A DNA stretch of 64,000 nucleotides, taken from contig SVJS01000002.1 of NCBI GenBank assembly GCA_015068855.1, positions 1 through 64,000 on the forward strand, read 5' to 3'. Shown here in pieces: positions 3 through 6,452 of the stretch. Source of the stretch: Oscillospiraceae bacterium (GTDB taxonomy: Bacteria; Bacillota; Clostridia; UBA1381; UBA9506). The first letter of the stretch is position 1, and every line of letters begins with the position of its first letter. The notes beneath the pieces are model-generated. The model was not told where the DNA came from. It ran no database searches and saw only the letters and a program-made list of their open reading frames with translations. The position numbers were made by a program, and so were the translations under genes.

Positions 3-1115
3 GATAAAGCTCTGAACGTGAGCCCCACCGCAAGCCAGGAGACAGGTAATGACTGGTTTGGTATGAGACATGCTGATGTTGGTAGTGCTACATTTACAGA
101 AAGTGAATATACTAACGAGTTCCGCTTTAATTTGAGCAACTATGTAACAAAGGCTGGCGACGCGGGTCGTACCATCGCTTACATTCAGATTGGTGGCAAC
201 AACTACATCGCTATGAACTCCACAGAGGAAGGCCTGCTGAACCTGTGGCTGACAAAGGATGCCAGCCAGTCTAACCCCACTTGGATCGGTGAAACAAGCA
301 AGGTTTCCTTGGGTAGCATCACAATGGGTGAGTATCACACCATCGCCGTTCGCAACTACTTAGATGGCGGTGCTGTTAAGACGGATGTTACCATTGACGG
401 CAGAACTACGAAGGGTCTTTCCATGAGCATGAGTGCATCCCTTGTTCCGGCAGTTAATACTGCTGCATACGGTAGCTTTATTTTCTACCATATGATGAGT
501 AATGCAATCGGTGTTCCCACAAACGCTTACGGTTATGTTGATTATGACGTGGCTTATGACTATGTTGCCTTAAAGACTCCGACGGCTGAATATCGTAACG
601 ACTTTACAGCTACAACGGCTGCTGCCGGTACTATTCCTACAGAGTCCATCAGTAACGGATTCACTTATACAAATCGTTTGAATAATCCCGCGAAATTTGA
701 TGTAACAATCGTTGCTGATGCAGCTGATGCAGATAAAGCAGGTCTTGCTTCCGGTTCTGGCGCCGCTGTTCTGACAGCAGCAGGCGTTAAGGGCGGCGTT
801 GAAGTTATCTCCAAGATTGCAGCCGGTTCTGCTAAGAACTATGGTATCATCGTCAGTGAAGAAGCTCTGACAGGCACCATCACAGCAGCAGACATCGCAG
901 AATGGACTGTTACCGAGGCAGAAGCTGAATACAGAAAGACATCCGCTTTTGCAGCTTTGGTTGCAGGTGACGACGGACGCTTTGCTGTCAACGTGTTCGA
1001 CGGTGCAGCAACTGAGTATTTCAAGGATAAGACATTATTTGTTTATGTTTACGCTGCAAACGATTCAACAGTAGATTATGCTCCGGTTTACAGTGCAGCC
1101 GGCTTTGCATATTAA
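3..1115 (+). CDS. C-terminal part of a large secreted or surface protein (partial)
   Basis: The reading frame is open to the left edge of the window, so the GTG at 18 is probably not the real start and this is only the C-terminal 370 or so residues. The sequence is rich in Thr, Ser, Ala, Gly and aromatic residues, has no cysteine, and alternates short polar and beta-prone stretches, as in extracellular beta-sandwich modules. I see no membrane helix, LPXTG or SLH motif in the visible part. It may be a lectin-like or adhesin-like module followed by an Ig-like module from about residue 195, but no family was recognised. A small peptide gene starts 12 bases downstream on the same strand, so the two are probably co-transcribed. 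Confidence 0.6.
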   Translation, partial: DKALNVSPTASQETGNDWFGMRHADVGSATFTESEYTNEFRFNLSNYVTKAGDAGRTIAYIQIGGNNYIAMNSTEEGLLNLWLTKDASQSNPTWIGETSKVSLGSITMGEYHTIAVRNYLDGGAVKTDVTIDGRTTKGLSMSMSASLVPAVNTAAYGSFIFYHMMSNAIGVPTNAYGYVDYDVAYDYVALKTPTAEYRNDFTATTAAAGTIPTESISNGFTYTNRLNNPAKFDVTIVADAADADKAGLASGSGAAVLTAAGVKGGVEVISKIAAGSAKNYGIIVSEEALTGTITAADIAEWTVTEAEAEYRKTSAFAALVAGDDGRFAVNVFDGAATEYFKDKTLFVYVYAANDSTVDYAPVYSAAGFAY

Positions 1116-1127
1116 TAAAGGGAGGAT

Positions 1128-1289
1128 ATGAAAATGAAAAAGTATGAAAAGCCTGCAATGCAGGTTCGCGAAATCAGAGTTAAAGAGAACCTGGCAAGAT
1201 TGTCCGCTACCAGCGCTGTTGACTGGCTGAAAAATAACGGTGTTGTTGCAACATCCGTTTGGACACTCTCTTCCGTAACTCCTTCCTGA
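1128..1289 (+). CDS. small 53-residue peptide of unknown function
   Basis: This ORF is too short for the track. It starts at ATG 1128 behind GGGAGG and has a second in-frame ATG two codons later. The product is 53 aa with a charged N-terminal half (MKKYEKP, then REIRVKENLARLS) and an uncharged, Ser/Thr/Val-rich C-terminal half ending in TPS. A basic KKYEKP start followed by an acidic segment and a small-residue tail resembles the many short orphan peptides of gut anaerobes, some of which look like leader-core precursors. There is no cysteine, and no modifying enzyme is beside it. It sits between a surface protein and a strong terminator, so the two form one transcription unit. Function unknown. 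Confidence 0.6.
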   Translation: MKMKKYEKPAMQVREIRVKENLARLSATSAVDWLKNNGVVATSVWTLSSVTPS

Positions 1290-1306
1290 TTGGTCTAACT
1301 GATGAA

Positions 1307-1337
1307 AGCACCCGCGTGGATACGCGGGTGCTTTTTT
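1307..1337 (+). terminator. Rho-independent terminator after the small peptide
   Basis: An 11-bp perfect stem (AGCACCCGCGT pairing with ACGCGGGTGCT) with a four-base loop is followed by a run of six T. It lies 18 bases after the stop codon of the 53-aa peptide and would end the surface-protein transcript. Confidence 0.9.
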
Positions 1338-1406
1338 CGTTTTTATTGGGCTGCAATAAAGGCCACACTTGTGCTCAGGAGAAGCCTTGAAAAGTGACAA
1401 CATAAA

Positions 1407-1710: not shown

Positions 1711-1728
1711 TTTTTAGGATTGATTTCT

Positions 1729-2118
1729 ATGAGAAAATACAGCAGGCAAAGAGAGATGATTTTAGAATATTTGAAAAACACAACGGCCCATCCTACGGCA
1801 GAGCAGGTTTATGATGACCTACGGGAGGATTGCCCCGGCCTCAGCCTTTCAACGGTTTACCGCAATCTGCGGCTTTTGTCAGAGGACGGTGTGATTCGCC
1901 GGATGGATACGGGCGAAAGTGTTGACCGCTTTGATGCGGACACAAGCCCTCACACTCATTTCATTTGTTCACATTGCAAGCAGGTAACTGATGTTTTCCA
2001 AACGCTCATTGAAGCAGAACAGTTAACATCAGCGCTGGGCAAAGACTATCAGGTCAAACAGCACACGCTGTATCTTTATGGCCTGTGTAATCAATGCACA
2101 GCATCCGAGCAAGCATAA
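1729..2118 (+). CDS. perR: Fur family transcriptional regulator, PerR-like
   Basis: A 129-aa metal-dependent repressor. The N-terminal winged helix (about 1-75) includes the family sequence STVYRNLRLL. The dimer and metal domain carries the HTHFICSHC segment and a second CNQC pair near the C-terminus, which together would form the structural zinc site. The ATG at 1729 is chosen over the TTG at 1720 because AGGA lies 9 bases upstream of it. In Firmicutes, PerR senses peroxide through Fe-catalysed oxidation of its metal-binding histidines. Rubrerythrin and ferritin genes follow directly, which favours PerR over Fur or Zur, but paralogue assignment from sequence alone is uncertain. A palindromic operator overlaps its own transcription start. 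Confidence 0.8.
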   Translation: MRKYSRQREMILEYLKNTTAHPTAEQVYDDLREDCPGLSLSTVYRNLRLLSEDGVIRRMDTGESVDRFDADTSPHTHFICSHCKQVTDVFQTLIEAEQLTSALGKDYQVKQHTLYLYGLCNQCTASEQA

Positions 2119-2153
2119 AATAAAATTTATATTATATAATGGAGGTTTTTAGT

Positions 2154-2741
2154 ATGAAAAAGTTTGTATGTTCCGTTTGTGGTTATGTTCATGAAGGTGA
2201 TGCTCCGCCGGCCAACTGCCCCGTTTGCAAGGTTCCGGCTGATAAGTTTAAGGAAATGGCAGAGGATGCGCCCCTGGCTGCACAGCATGAATATGGTGTT
2301 TATGGCAAAACCGTTAAAAACAACCCCGATGTTTCCGAAGCTGATAAGAAATATATCTTTGAGCAGCTGATGGCAAACTTTAACGGCGAATGTGCCGAGG
2401 TTGGTATGTATCTGTGCATGGCCCGCATCGCACACAGAGAGGGCTATCCCGAAGTTGGTCTTTACTGGGAAAAGGCAGCCTATGAAGAAGCAGAGCATGC
2501 TGCCAAATTTGCTGAACTGTTAGGCGAAGACTTAGAGCCCAACATGAAAGCCACCACCAAGGATAACCTTGCCTGGAGAGTTGATTGCGAATACGGTGCA
2601 ACCCAGGGCAAGTTTGATTTAGCCGCTTGCGCTAAGAAGAACGGTCTTGATGCTATCCATGACACCGTGCATGAAATGGCCCGCGACGAAGCCCGCCACG
2701 GCAAGGGCTTAGAAGGATTACTCAAGAGATACTTCAAATAA
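2154..2741 (+). CDS. reverse rubrerythrin (NADH peroxidase component)
   Basis: A 195-aa diiron protein that reduces hydrogen peroxide, and oxygen in clostridia, with electrons from NADH carriers. The rubredoxin domain comes first, with CSVCGYVHEG and CPVC giving the Fe(SCys)4 site in residues 1-35. The ferritin-like four-helix domain follows, with iron-ligand motifs such as NFNGECAE, EEAEHA and ARDEARH. This domain order is the reverse of classical rubrerythrin and is typical of clostridial peroxide reductases. The upstream in-frame ATG at 2139 overlaps the Shine-Dalgarno GGAGG, so ATG 2154 is the start. It lies 35 bases after the PerR-like gene, in the same probable regulon. Confidence 0.9.
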   Translation: MKKFVCSVCGYVHEGDAPPANCPVCKVPADKFKEMAEDAPLAAQHEYGVYGKTVKNNPDVSEADKKYIFEQLMANFNGECAEVGMYLCMARIAHREGYPEVGLYWEKAAYEEAEHAAKFAELLGEDLEPNMKATTKDNLAWRVDCEYGATQGKFDLAACAKKNGLDAIHDTVHEMARDEARHGKGLEGLLKRYFK

Positions 2742-2750
2742 AATAAAACA

Positions 2751-2785
2751 TGCAGGCGGCCGCGTTCTCGGTCGCCTGCTTTGAA
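2751..2785 (+). terminator. hairpin between rubrerythrin and ferritin
   Basis: GCAGGCGGCCG pairs with CGGTCGCCTGC (11 bp, one G-U), followed by only three T. The short U tract suggests partial termination or mRNA end protection rather than a full stop. It could set a lower ferritin level relative to rubrerythrin. Confidence 0.55.
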
Positions 2786-2800
2786 GAAGGAGAAAGAATT

Positions 2801-3313
2801 ATGGATGCAAAGGTTTCAAAATTGCTTAACGAGCAAATTACAAAAGAGTTTTATTCGGCATATTTATATCTTGATTTTTCAGTTTTTTATGAAGCACAGG
2901 GACTCGACGGCTTTGCAAACTGGTATATGATTCAGGCGCAGGAAGAACGAGATCACGCAATGCTTTTCTTAAAATATTTGCAGATGTGCGGAGAGGCAGT
3001 CGAGCTTGGCGTGATTGACAAGCCGGATAAGGCGCTTAAAACGCTGATGGACCCCTTACAGGCAGGTCTTGAACATGAGCAGTATGTAACAAGCCTTATC
3101 AATGACATCTATAGTGCGGCATACGACGTCAAGGATTTCAGAACCATGCAGTTTTTAGACTGGTTTGTCAAAGAACAGCTGGAAGAAGAAAAGAATGCCG
3201 ACGATATGATTAAAAAAATGGAGCTTTTCGGAAGCGACGCAAAAGGACTCTATTCACTCGATGCAGAATATGCAGCCAGAATTTACACGGCTCCATCGCT
3301 TGTTCTTGACTAA
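2801..3313 (+). CDS. ftnA: ferritin (non-heme iron storage protein)
   Basis: A 170-aa bacterial ferritin that oxidises Fe(II) at a diiron centre and stores iron in a 24-mer cage. Visible ligand motifs include the early helix EFYSAYLYLDFS, QEERDHAM, and the late helix FVKEQLEEEKN. There is no heme-binding signature, so it is FtnA-like rather than bacterioferritin. The ORF track starts upstream at 2750, but that would run through the hairpin; ATG 2801 follows AAGGAGAAAG. Iron sequestration next to a peroxidase and a PerR-like repressor is a coherent defence against Fenton chemistry. Confidence 0.9.
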   Translation: MDAKVSKLLNEQITKEFYSAYLYLDFSVFYEAQGLDGFANWYMIQAQEERDHAMLFLKYLQMCGEAVELGVIDKPDKALKTLMDPLQAGLEHEQYVTSLINDIYSAAYDVKDFRTMQFLDWFVKEQLEEEKNADDMIKKMELFGSDAKGLYSLDAEYAARIYTAPSLVLD

Positions 3314-3434
3314 ATGCCCCGAGAAATTGAAACAAAGTCACAATGAGCGGCTTTTGGCAAACGAGGAAAGAGGCAGCAAAGGTTTAGAAACTTTATCAAT
3401 GAGAGATTTCAAATAAGAAAGGACGTAGGGCACT

Positions 3435-3641
3435 ATGAAGGAAAATTATACCGTTTGCAATTGTAAGCAGGTGACTTACAATGATATTGCAGATGCCATT
3501 CATAACAATGCAAAGTTTGATGATGTTTTGAAAACGTTTGAGGGCGTGCAGAAGATTACGAACTGCTCCACGGGTTGCGGCGGTTGCTATCAAAAGGTTT
3601 TGGATATTATCTCCAATGTCTTGAACGGCGCGGAGATATAA
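3435..3641 (+). CDS. BFD-like [2Fe-2S]-binding protein
   Basis: A 68-aa protein matching the BFD-like domain (bacterioferritin-associated ferredoxin and NifU/NirB middle domains). It has a CNC pair near residue 8 and a second cluster CSTGCGGC near residue 44, a typical four-Cys [2Fe-2S] arrangement with one extra Cys. Next to ferritin the natural inference is a role in electron delivery for iron release, as for Bfd in proteobacteria; that partnership is inferred. There is a 121-base gap after ftnA with no clear promoter, and the RBS (AAAGGA) sits rather far upstream. Confidence 0.75.
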   Translation: MKENYTVCNCKQVTYNDIADAIHNNAKFDDVLKTFEGVQKITNCSTGCGGCYQKVLDIISNVLNGAEI

Positions 3642-3804: not shown

Positions 3805-4092
3805 TAAATTTGAATATCACAAAAAACAACTGTGACGAGGACGGTCGGAATGAGAAGCCCGGAGAGAGTTGCCGGATGGTGCGAGGCAACGGCGAGGCAT
3901 TCCAATGACTTATCACCTCTGAGTTGGAGGACCGAAAGGCTTGGCCGAGTAGACTCCTTCCGTAATGCTGCGTAAAGGCAAAGAGCTTGTTTGAGCTCGG
4001 TAAGTGACGGGAATTTTGTTTTCCGTAATTTGAGTGGTACCGCGGGTTTATAATAACTCGTCTCAAAAGTTTTTTTGAGACGGGTTTTTTTG
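3805..4092 (+). promoter_or_regulatory. T-box riboswitch, probable isoleucine (AUC) specifier
   Basis: All parts of a T-box leader are visible. Stem I has a base helix CAAC/GUUG, a K-turn-like internal loop, GAGG/CCUC (3837-3840 with 3916-3919), GGAAUG/CAUUCC (3847-3852 with 3898-3903), an AGAGAG bulge and a distal GGAUGGUGCGA loop. The T-box sequence GAGTGGTACCGCGGG is at 4032-4046. A terminator, CTCGTCTCAAAA pairing with TTTTGAGACGGG, ends in seven T at 4056-4092. The codon just 5' of the ACC/CUC helix is ATC (3912-3914) followed by A, which reads as isoleucine. The specifier assignment is by position only; the T-box call itself is firm. Confidence 0.85.
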
Positions 4093-4151: not shown

Positions 4152-6452
4152 ATGGATTACAGTTTGAAAGAAGTCGCAGGTAGAATCAAAGACCTGCGCG
4201 AAGCAAAGGGATTTACACAGGAAGAGCTTGCAAAGCTTTGCGGTGTGACAGCGGAACAGTACAAAATTCTGGAAATGGGTGAGACTGATTTCAGTTTCAC
4301 ATTTATCTACAAGTGTGCCAAAGCATGCGGCGTTGAGGTTGTTGATTTGTTAGAGGGAACAAGCACAACGCTGACCTCCTTTGCCATCACAAGAAAAGGC
4401 GAGGGTCTTAAAATTATGAAACAGCACGGCGTTGAATACGATAACCTGGCGCCTAAGTTCAGGGATAAGCTGGCAGAGCCGTTCCTTGTTAAGTTCCCCT
4501 ATCTTGAAGAGGAGCAGAATAAACCCATGGAGCTTAATTCCCACAACGGGCAGGAGTTTGACGTGATTGTTAAGGGTTCACTCAAAGTGCAGGTTGGTAA
4601 CCACGTTGACGTTCTGCATGAAGGCGATTCGATTTTCTATAACAGCATCATCCCGCATGGTATGATTGCTGTTTCAGAGGGCGGTTGCGAATTCCATGCG
4701 GTTGTCTTAAATCCCCAGGACGGCAGCGTTGGCGAAGAATATCCCGAGGCGCCCGTGGTTTTAGCAAAGGCGGCGGCCAAAAAAGAAAAAGCAGAAACCG
4801 TTGCCGATAAGTTTATTGAATCATCCTATGATGAAAACGGCGTGTTCAGCGGCATTACATTCAAAAATGAAGACAGCTTCAACTTTGCCTTTGACTGCGT
4901 AGATGCTATCGCAGACAAGACCCCGGATAAGCTGGCTATGTTATGGGTGGCAAACGACAAGACGGACAGACGCTTTACATTCAGCGACATGAAAAAGTAT
5001 TCTGCCAAAACGGCAAACTACTTTGAGTCTCTTGGCATTAAAAAAGGCGATACCGTAATGCTTGTATTAAAACGCCATTATCAATTCTGGTTCTCAATGC
5101 TTGCGCTTCATAAAATCGGCGCTATCGCAATCCCTGCCACCAATCAGCTTGTAGAACACGATTTTGATTACAGATATAAAGCGGCCAAGGTAAAAGCCGT
5201 TGTGTGCACAGCCGATGGTGATGTATCAACTGAGGCCGAAAAAGCAGCGGCGAACTATCCCGGCATGGTTAAGGTTTTGGTCGGCGGTAAAAAAGAAGGC
5301 TGGCACGATTTCAACGTTGAGATGGAACGTTTTAGCACACACTTCGACCGTACAGAAAACACGCCTTGCGGCAACGACCCCATGCTGATGCTCTTTACCT
5401 CAGGCACAACGGGCTATCCCCGCATTGCAACGCATTCCTATAAATATGCGCTCGGTCATTATCCCACAGCAAAGCATTGGCACAATGTTAACCCTGACGG
5501 GCTGCACTTTACCATTTCCGACACGGGTTGGGGCAAGGCTCTTTGGGGTAAACTTTACGGTCAATGGCTCTGCGAGGCAGCACAGTTTACATATGACTTT
5601 GACAGATTCCATTCGGAAGACATCCTGCCGATGTTTGCAAAATACCATATCACAACATTCTGCGCACCGCCTACCATGTATCGTTTCTTCATCAAAGAGG
5701 ATTTGTCAAAATATGACCTTTCTTCTATCGAATATGCAACAACAGCAGGCGAGGCGCTGAACCCCGAGGTGTTTAACCAGTTCAAGAAAGCGACGGGGCT
5801 GACCATCATGGAAGGCTTTGGGCAGACGGAGACAACCCTTTCCATTGCAAACTTTGTTGGCTCTACGCCGAAAATCGGCTCCATGGGTAGACCGAGTCCG
5901 CTTTATGATGTGGCTGTTTTAGACCCTGACGGAAACGAATGTAAGACGGGTGATACAGGTGAAATCTGCATTCGTGTCAAGGATAGTGTTCCTTGCGGTC
6001 TCTTCATCGGCTATTATCTTGATGAAGAAAAGACCAACGAGGTTTGGCATGACGGCTATTATCATACCGGTGACCAGGCGACCATGGACGAAGACGGATA
6101 TCTTTGGTATGTGGGCAGAATTGATGATGTTATTAAATCATCCGGTTACCGCATTGGGCCTTTTGAAATCGAGAGTGTTATCATGGAGCTGCCTTATGTT
6201 TTAGAGTGTGCAATCACACCGGTTCCTGATGAAGTACGCGGTCAGATTGTTAAAGCCACCATCGTTCTGGTTAAGGGAACGCAAGCAACAGATGAACTGA
6301 AAAAAGAAATTCAGGACTATGTTAAAACACATACGGCGCCTTACAAATATCCGAGAATCGTTGAATTTGTGGAGGAGCTTCCCAAAACAATCAGCGGTAA
6401 GGTAAGACGTGTTGAAATCCGCAAGAATGACCTGGAGAAAATGAACAAATAA
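4152..6452 (+). CDS. HTH-cupin-acyl-CoA synthetase fusion protein (MACS/ACSM-like)
   Basis: A 766-aa three-part protein. Residues 1-67 form an XRE helix-turn-helix; 75-190 form a single cupin barrel; about 220-766 form an ANL-superfamily adenylating enzyme. Visible ligase motifs are FTSGTTGYPR (about 415-424, with Arg where the P-loop motif usually has Lys), GFGQTETT (about 555), YHTGDQ (about 637), the GRIDDVIKSSGYR hinge and the catalytic-lysine motif ISGKVRR near 750. ISDTGWGKALWGKLYG is characteristic of medium-chain acyl-CoA synthetases. The enzyme should activate a short or branched carboxylic acid to its CoA ester. The HTH-cupin half suggests ligand sensing or autoregulation. An Ile-type T-box precedes it, so a branched acid feeding isoleucine, such as 2-methylbutyrate, is inferred as substrate. 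Confidence 0.8.
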   Translation: MDYSLKEVAGRIKDLREAKGFTQEELAKLCGVTAEQYKILEMGETDFSFTFIYKCAKACGVEVVDLLEGTSTTLTSFAITRKGEGLKIMKQHGVEYDNLAPKFRDKLAEPFLVKFPYLEEEQNKPMELNSHNGQEFDVIVKGSLKVQVGNHVDVLHEGDSIFYNSIIPHGMIAVSEGGCEFHAVVLNPQDGSVGEEYPEAPVVLAKAAAKKEKAETVADKFIESSYDENGVFSGITFKNEDSFNFAFDCVDAIADKTPDKLAMLWVANDKTDRRFTFSDMKKYSAKTANYFESLGIKKGDTVMLVLKRHYQFWFSMLALHKIGAIAIPATNQLVEHDFDYRYKAAKVKAVVCTADGDVSTEAEKAAANYPGMVKVLVGGKKEGWHDFNVEMERFSTHFDRTENTPCGNDPMLMLFTSGTTGYPRIATHSYKYALGHYPTAKHWHNVNPDGLHFTISDTGWGKALWGKLYGQWLCEAAQFTYDFDRFHSEDILPMFAKYHITTFCAPPTMYRFFIKEDLSKYDLSSIEYATTAGEALNPEVFNQFKKATGLTIMEGFGQTETTLSIANFVGSTPKIGSMGRPSPLYDVAVLDPDGNECKTGDTGEICIRVKDSVPCGLFIGYYLDEEKTNEVWHDGYYHTGDQATMDEDGYLWYVGRIDDVIKSSGYRIGPFEIESVIMELPYVLECAITPVPDEVRGQIVKATIVLVKGTQATDELKKEIQDYVKTHTAPYKYPRIVEFVEELPKTISGKVRRVEIRKNDLEKMNK

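Follow-up and report, generated by a model that had tools for sequence, protein, structure and literature searches.

Linear polyphosphorylated peptides (LPPs) are RiPPs that were described in May 2026 by Popov et al. (PMC13381572). The LPP genes of Paenibacillus alginolyticus are LppA, K, B, S, D and N, encoding the precursor LppA with a YxxP leader, the RRE LppB, the signal-peptidase-like LppS, the MsbA-like LppD, the NTP transferase LppN and the HprK-like LppK, which polyphosphorylates Ser3 of the core; the set includes no cyclase (PMC13381572). YxxPx[hydrophobic] is the RRE-binding motif of the leader, and the crystal structure of LppB shows the Tyr and Pro of the leader held by N33, D70 and F74 (PMC13381572). 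The defining paper states the biological role of LPPs as unknown (PMC13381572). We analysed a 64,000-nucleotide stretch of an Oscillospiraceae genome (the window; positions 1 to 64,000 of contig SVJS01000002.1, assembly GCA_015068855.1), in which a short gene behind a surface-type protein quite probably encodes the precursor of an LPP-type linear RiPP, matured in trans and co-expressed with that protein.

The initial annotation had placed a 53-aa peptide at 1128–1289 of the forward strand. This open reading frame is present in the sequence of the window, 12 nt past the stop codon of a 370-aa open reading frame (3–1115) that is truncated where the window, and with it the contig, begins; its start codon, however, probably lies further in. 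We take ATG 1134 rather than ATG 1128 as the likely start because the Shine-Dalgarno sequence GGAGG lies 8 nt from the former and just 2 nt from the latter, and because the aligned homologs open with M-[KR]-[KRET]-[YF]. The peptide gene most likely spans 1134–1289 and would encode 51 aa, MKKYEKPAMQVREIRVKENLARLSATSAVDWLKNNGVVATSVWTLSSVTPS. The features of the locus are as follows.

3..1115, forward strand: surface-type protein, C-terminal 370 aa, cut by the contig edge; residues 263–358 (~789–1076) match the secreted-protein domain of relatives
1121..1125, forward strand: Shine-Dalgarno GGAGG, from the sequence
1134..1289, forward strand: probable precursor peptide gene, from RBS spacing, homolog starts, paralog dN/dS of ~0.07 and homologs
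1134..1196, forward strand: predicted leader MKKYEKPAMQVREIRVKENLA with the YxxP motif, a conserved block in 16–19 homologs; the end of the leader is inferred
1197..1286, forward strand: predicted core, Ser/Thr-rich and differing between species, from alignment and composition
1304..1342, forward strand: intrinsic terminator common to the surface protein and the peptide, z = −7.6

The terminator comprises a 14-bp stem at 1304–1335 and a U tract (z = −7.6 vs shuffles), which agrees with the strong terminator that had been noted behind the peptide. The charged, leader-like front and the uncharged tail described at the same time were borne out by the composition: residues 1–22 contain 7 K/R, 3 D/E and zero S/T, and the last 29 contain 1 K/R, 1 D/E and 10 S/T. 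The peptide has no signal peptide of its own, and no Pfam or NCBIfam model matches the peptide or the surface protein of the window.

Behind the terminator, the intergenic region carries two exact copies of TCCTGTGCCCGGAACGGGTATTA (1507–1529 and 1584–1606), 77 nt apart, suggesting that they belong to a small repeat element. The compact group that follows (1720–3641) resembles an ordinary oxidative-stress cluster: alongside a FUR-family regulator and a rubrerythrin, it encodes a ferritin-like protein and a small protein rich in Cys. Further downstream, a T-box leader at 3823–4068 (91.2 bits, just below the Rfam cut-off of 93 bits; E 1e-20) directly precedes an unusual T-box target (4152–6452), a 766-aa protein fusing helix-turn-helix, cupin and AMP-binding (acyl-CoA synthetase-like) domains.

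The genome itself (1.25 Mb in 21 contigs, 93% complete) contains a paralog of the peptide at G000:C17:67583–67741 that is 77% identical. The two genes differ at 39 nucleotides, 26 of them at third codon positions; of the codon differences, 17 are synonymous and 12 nonsynonymous (dS 1.87, dN 0.13, dN/dS ~0.07). Homologs were found in nine of the nine other genomes of the genus searched and in most of the family genomes searched. Judged by this third-position bias and by the homologs, the open reading frame is a real conserved gene under purifying selection rather than a chance reading frame. A chance frame might account for its shortness, for the lack of matching family models and for a pattern-based scan of a contig collection with the single peptide, in which no relatives appeared; that scan requires near-exact peptide words and may omit the window's own or very near genomes, and whole-genome searches did find relatives. 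With the low dN/dS of the paralog pair and homologs throughout the genus and family against it, a chance frame has next to no probability. The named relatives are mostly ruminant-gut Clostridia and Oscillospiraceae MAGs.

The alignment defines a conserved leader, K[K/E]YxKPxLxVxEIRVxEN[L/I]A, and a Ser/Thr-rich tail that differs between homologs. The leader Y and P are invariant in the 16-sequence family set, and a hydrophobic residue two positions after P occurs in nearly all; a YxxPx[hydrophobic] motif near the N-terminus is thus combined with a variable C-terminal part, as in LPP precursors. Of the full published LPP leader consensus, YxxPxVLxHQxIxFETxxS, just the YxxP-hydrophobic element and one glutamate match the window peptide, which has neither HQ nor FET. 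Relatives across the order with F..EN(I)xTxS are nearer to this consensus. Cleavage past the leader would leave the predicted core RLSATSAVDWLKNNGVVATSVWTLSSVTPS. The Ser3 position of the core is not conserved in the family, being Ser in the window (if the cut follows ENLA), Thr in the paralog and varied elsewhere. The core motif [ST]x[YFW][STNQK], which emerged from 16 peptides, reached just marginal significance (p = 0.056) when applied to an independent set of 30.

The gene order around the peptide is conserved as well. We aligned together 16 secreted proteins preceding family peptides, and residues 263–358 of the window surface protein resemble the C-terminal domain of these pre-peptide proteins (hhalign E 5e-7, probability 92%). 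At 16 of the 17 other family loci, the peptide lies on the same strand, within ~100 nt behind a secreted protein of ~310–390 aa. Only the own-genome paralog (L031) departs from this arrangement, being preceded by a Gfo/Idh-type oxidoreductase and not by a surface protein. Downstream of this paralog (L031 8001–9626 on G000:C17), the translation reads as an XRE-type helix-turn-helix apparently fused to a phosphoglucomutase/phosphoglucosamine mutase-like enzyme. A structure model of the secreted protein (mean pLDDT 77) retrieved just generic Ig/FnIII-like folds with low TM-scores and was uninformative on function.

Similar peptides were sought across the order with a DNA pattern, RBS + M-K-[KE]-[YF]-x-x-P, and with the reversed pattern as control; the former gave far more matches. 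In the genome under study it found the window gene alone, since the paralog starts with MKRY. After filtering, 31 peptides of 48–68 aa were left, most with a YxxPx[IML]x[IV]xxFxxEnIxTxS leader, and for 30 of them a same-strand open reading frame ends close to the peptide start, from 17 nt past it to 47 nt short of it. Among the upstream frames with a readable start (n = 14), 12 pass a strict signal-peptide test vs 77 of 312 control frames (25%; p 5e-6). A lenient hydrophobicity test was dropped, being positive for 14/14 but also for 166/312 controls. In a Paenibacillus contaminans cluster (L165), a long protein whose N-terminus is signal-like comes first, then a YxxP peptide, and after it the kinase, PqqD, protease and nucleotidyltransferase. 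These counts, together with the same gene order in that cluster, indicate that the pairing with secreted proteins is general, and that in the genus of the window the precursors, being dispersed, are probably served in trans. Several genomes of family f4 carry 2–5 different secreted-protein and YxxP-peptide pairs each (L110, L123–L131, L233–L258), some overlapping by 1–17 nt. Literature searches of open-access papers returned no earlier description of a pairing with secreted proteins.

Three suggestions of the initial annotation can be read against these data. Recurrence in gut anaerobes was confirmed by the homologs in the genus and family and by the similar peptides across the order, and conservation beside similar surface proteins, which had been proposed as a check, was found at the family loci. 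The idea of a small partner of the surface protein stands as genomic pairing alone (16/17 family loci; 30/31 distant peptides with a close upstream gene, of which 12/14 complete ones look secreted), whereas the own-genome paralog is unpaired. Of the options raised (precursor, signalling peptide or small partner), the precursor is favoured by the conserved YxxP leader, the variable core and the presence of an RRE, a protease, an exporter and a kinase in the genome.

The genome encodes one discrete RRE, a PqqD (PF05402, 61 bits), in one operon with an S24/S26 protease and an MsbA-like ABC exporter (L054), away from the peptide locus. Among solved structures, the chains closest to it are TbiB1, PbaB1 (9x90) and LppB (9x8z), and N33, D70 and F74 of LppB align to N45, D82 and F86 of this PqqD (HMMER alignment to 9x8z, numbering offset by hand). 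The protease gene (L054 9943–10428) overlaps the end of the PqqD gene. Its product matches PF00717 above the cut-off, has an archaeal-type signal peptidase I as the best NCBIfam match and retains Ser37, His75 and Asp90, which are invariant in the family alignment; we predict an active signal-peptidase-like serine protease beside the RRE gene, as in the LPP set. The exporter gene (L054 10428–12074) adjoins the protease gene and supplies the MsbA-like member of that set. An HprK-like kinase, likewise an LPP component, occurs in one copy, standing alone at another locus. Because its sequence matched no Pfam model and was not convincingly similar to any solved structure, its fold was predicted; the model (pLDDT 91) resembles PEPCK (PEP carboxykinase) and HprK/P (HPr kinase/phosphatase), and the P-loop (Walker A) SAPSGTGKSTHT and an NDD motif are largely invariant in 13 homologs. 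The one NTP_transf_5 in the genome lies inside a polysaccharide locus on another contig and may serve that locus.

Different contigs thus carry the peptide gene, the PqqD operon, the kinase gene and NTP_transf_5 here, in contrast to the clustered LPP genes; in some relatives (L043, L044 and L092) the genes are clustered. A kinase gene comes immediately behind that of the peptide in L039, L040, L043, L044, L045 and L047 (genera g3 and g6) and in L092 (g4), and PqqD and the ABC exporter stand ahead of the secreted protein in L043, L044 and L092. We assigned the peptide to the PqqD/kinase/ABC machinery because of this linkage in the loci of relatives.

The distribution of these genes points in the same direction. 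Of 61 genomes, 42 have both PqqD and the kinase and 16 have neither, which makes 58 in agreement; the three discordant genomes are G018 (54% complete), G020 (a contig begins inside the neighbouring ABC gene) and G060 (a weak PqqD match). The protease follows this pattern in the 33 genomes checked, G012 (67% complete) and G016 (74%) being without a match. The peptide, called by BLAST, DNA pattern and inspection (G012), was found in 29 PqqD-positive genomes and in one PqqD-negative genome (G020); 30 genomes have both peptide and kinase, and none has the peptide without the kinase. The family genomes G010 and G013 have neither peptide nor PqqD, kinase or protease. Fisher p-values for such co-occurrence ignore phylogeny. 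On this pattern of presence and absence, PqqD, kinase and protease are apparently gained and lost together. In G024, a genome without PqqD and kinase, a protease remnant broken by four stop codons (G024:C5:25529–25888) is consistent with loss of the whole system.

Combining these components, we infer leader binding, phosphorylation, the cleavage site, export and a joint function with the surface protein as follows. The surface protein and the peptide would be made from one transcript, and the YxxP leader would be bound by the single discrete RRE of the genome. Ser/Thr residues of the core might be phosphorylated by the HprK-like kinase, and the signal-peptidase-like serine protease might cut near ENLA while the RRE presents the leader. 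The MsbA-like ABC transporter would then export the core, whose action at the cell surface might be joint or coordinated with that of the co-expressed surface protein.

Phosphorylation might not be the defining step. The peptide could be a RiPP precursor for the same RRE, protease and exporter, with RRE and protease mainly trimming and exporting a short peptide, and with the kinase and the nucleotidyltransferase acting elsewhere, for example on surface glycans. The published phospho-acceptor position is not conserved in the family, neither the kinase nor NTP_transf_5 is linked to PqqD in this genome, and NTP_transf_5 sits among polysaccharide genes, all of which would favour this alternative; nevertheless, we consider it unlikely because seven related loci have the kinase gene immediately behind the peptide gene and no peptide was found in a kinase-negative genome. 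The paeninodin-like lasso peptides present a further alternative, as their leaders also carry [Y/W]xxP and their clusters also contain an HprK-like kinase and a nucleotidyltransferase. The YxxPxL-type leader would suit a lasso precursor, and the PqqD is nearest to lasso PqqD models, yet below their cut-offs. In this 93% complete genome, the search for a lasso B2 transglutaminase-like protease (PF13471) gave just one 12.8-bit match broken by stops, and the search for an Asn-synthetase-like cyclase (PF00733) just a 36-residue match and a weaker one. We rejected the lasso identity on these grounds and give it hardly any credence.

It is also conceivable, if rather improbable, that the product is an unmodified small protein acting directly with the surface protein as a chaperone, an assembly strand or a regulator, its likeness to RiPP leaders in YxxP being coincidental. 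The pairing with secreted proteins across the order would fit such a partner, as would the several peptides that overlap the upstream stop codon by 1–17 nt, suggesting translational coupling. However, the peptide lacks a signal peptide, its conserved part is the leader and not the tail, and the own-genome paralog is not beside a surface protein. The tight co-occurrence with PqqD, kinase and protease, and the operon linkage to them, argue further against this reading.

A broader possibility, which we put forward tentatively and which might well not hold, is that gut Clostridia possess a genome-wide system of trans-acting peptide tailoring, in which many secreted proteins each have their own YxxP precursor directly downstream, and in which the peptide, once tailored, serves that protein as an obligate accessory, be it a cofactor that is phosphorylated or glycosylated, a surface-polysaccharide anchor or an assembly strand. 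If so, this RiPP class would gain a structural role at the cell surface and not a diffusible, antibiotic-like one. The pairing of precursor and secreted protein across an order of gut anaerobes is itself a concrete, testable clue to the role of LPPs. It also suggests that RiPP mining near the RRE gene alone would overlook the majority of precursors here, as a single set of enzymes apparently serves dispersed genes of ~50 codons that are commonly skipped by annotation.

Among the known systems, the HPr-rel-A, GAK and SynChlorMet cassettes (NCBIfam HprK_rel_A/B, PqqD_rel_X, ScmC/ScmD) share an HprK-related kinase with a PqqD-family chaperone, but all matches here are far below the curated cut-offs. 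The paeninodin-like phosphorylated lasso peptides share the [Y/W]xxP leader, a discrete RRE, an HprK-like kinase, an NTP transferase and an ABC exporter, but neither a B2 protease nor a cyclase was detected here, the leader contains Tyr and not Trp, and PbaB1 has Gly and Gln in the alignments where the RRE of this genome has Asn and Asp (N45, D82). With LPPs, this system shares the YxxP-leader precursor, the discrete RRE, the signal-peptidase-like serine protease, the HprK-like kinase, the MsbA-like exporter and the lack of a detected cyclase, and the residues N, D and F with which LppB grips the leader are retained in its RRE; an NTP_transf_5 is encoded as well, but in the polysaccharide locus. 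It differs in that its components (precursor, RRE operon, kinase and NTP_transf_5) lie at separate sites in the genome, a secreted protein is encoded ahead of the precursor, the leader has the family's own consensus in place of the published one, the S3 phospho-acceptor is not conserved, and the hosts are Clostridia and not Bacilli. Because the full leader consensus and the gene clustering are lacking and the published phosphorylation site is not conserved, we do not file the peptide as a strict LPP member, even though its leader and the predicted enzymes of this genome suggest that it works like an LPP precursor.
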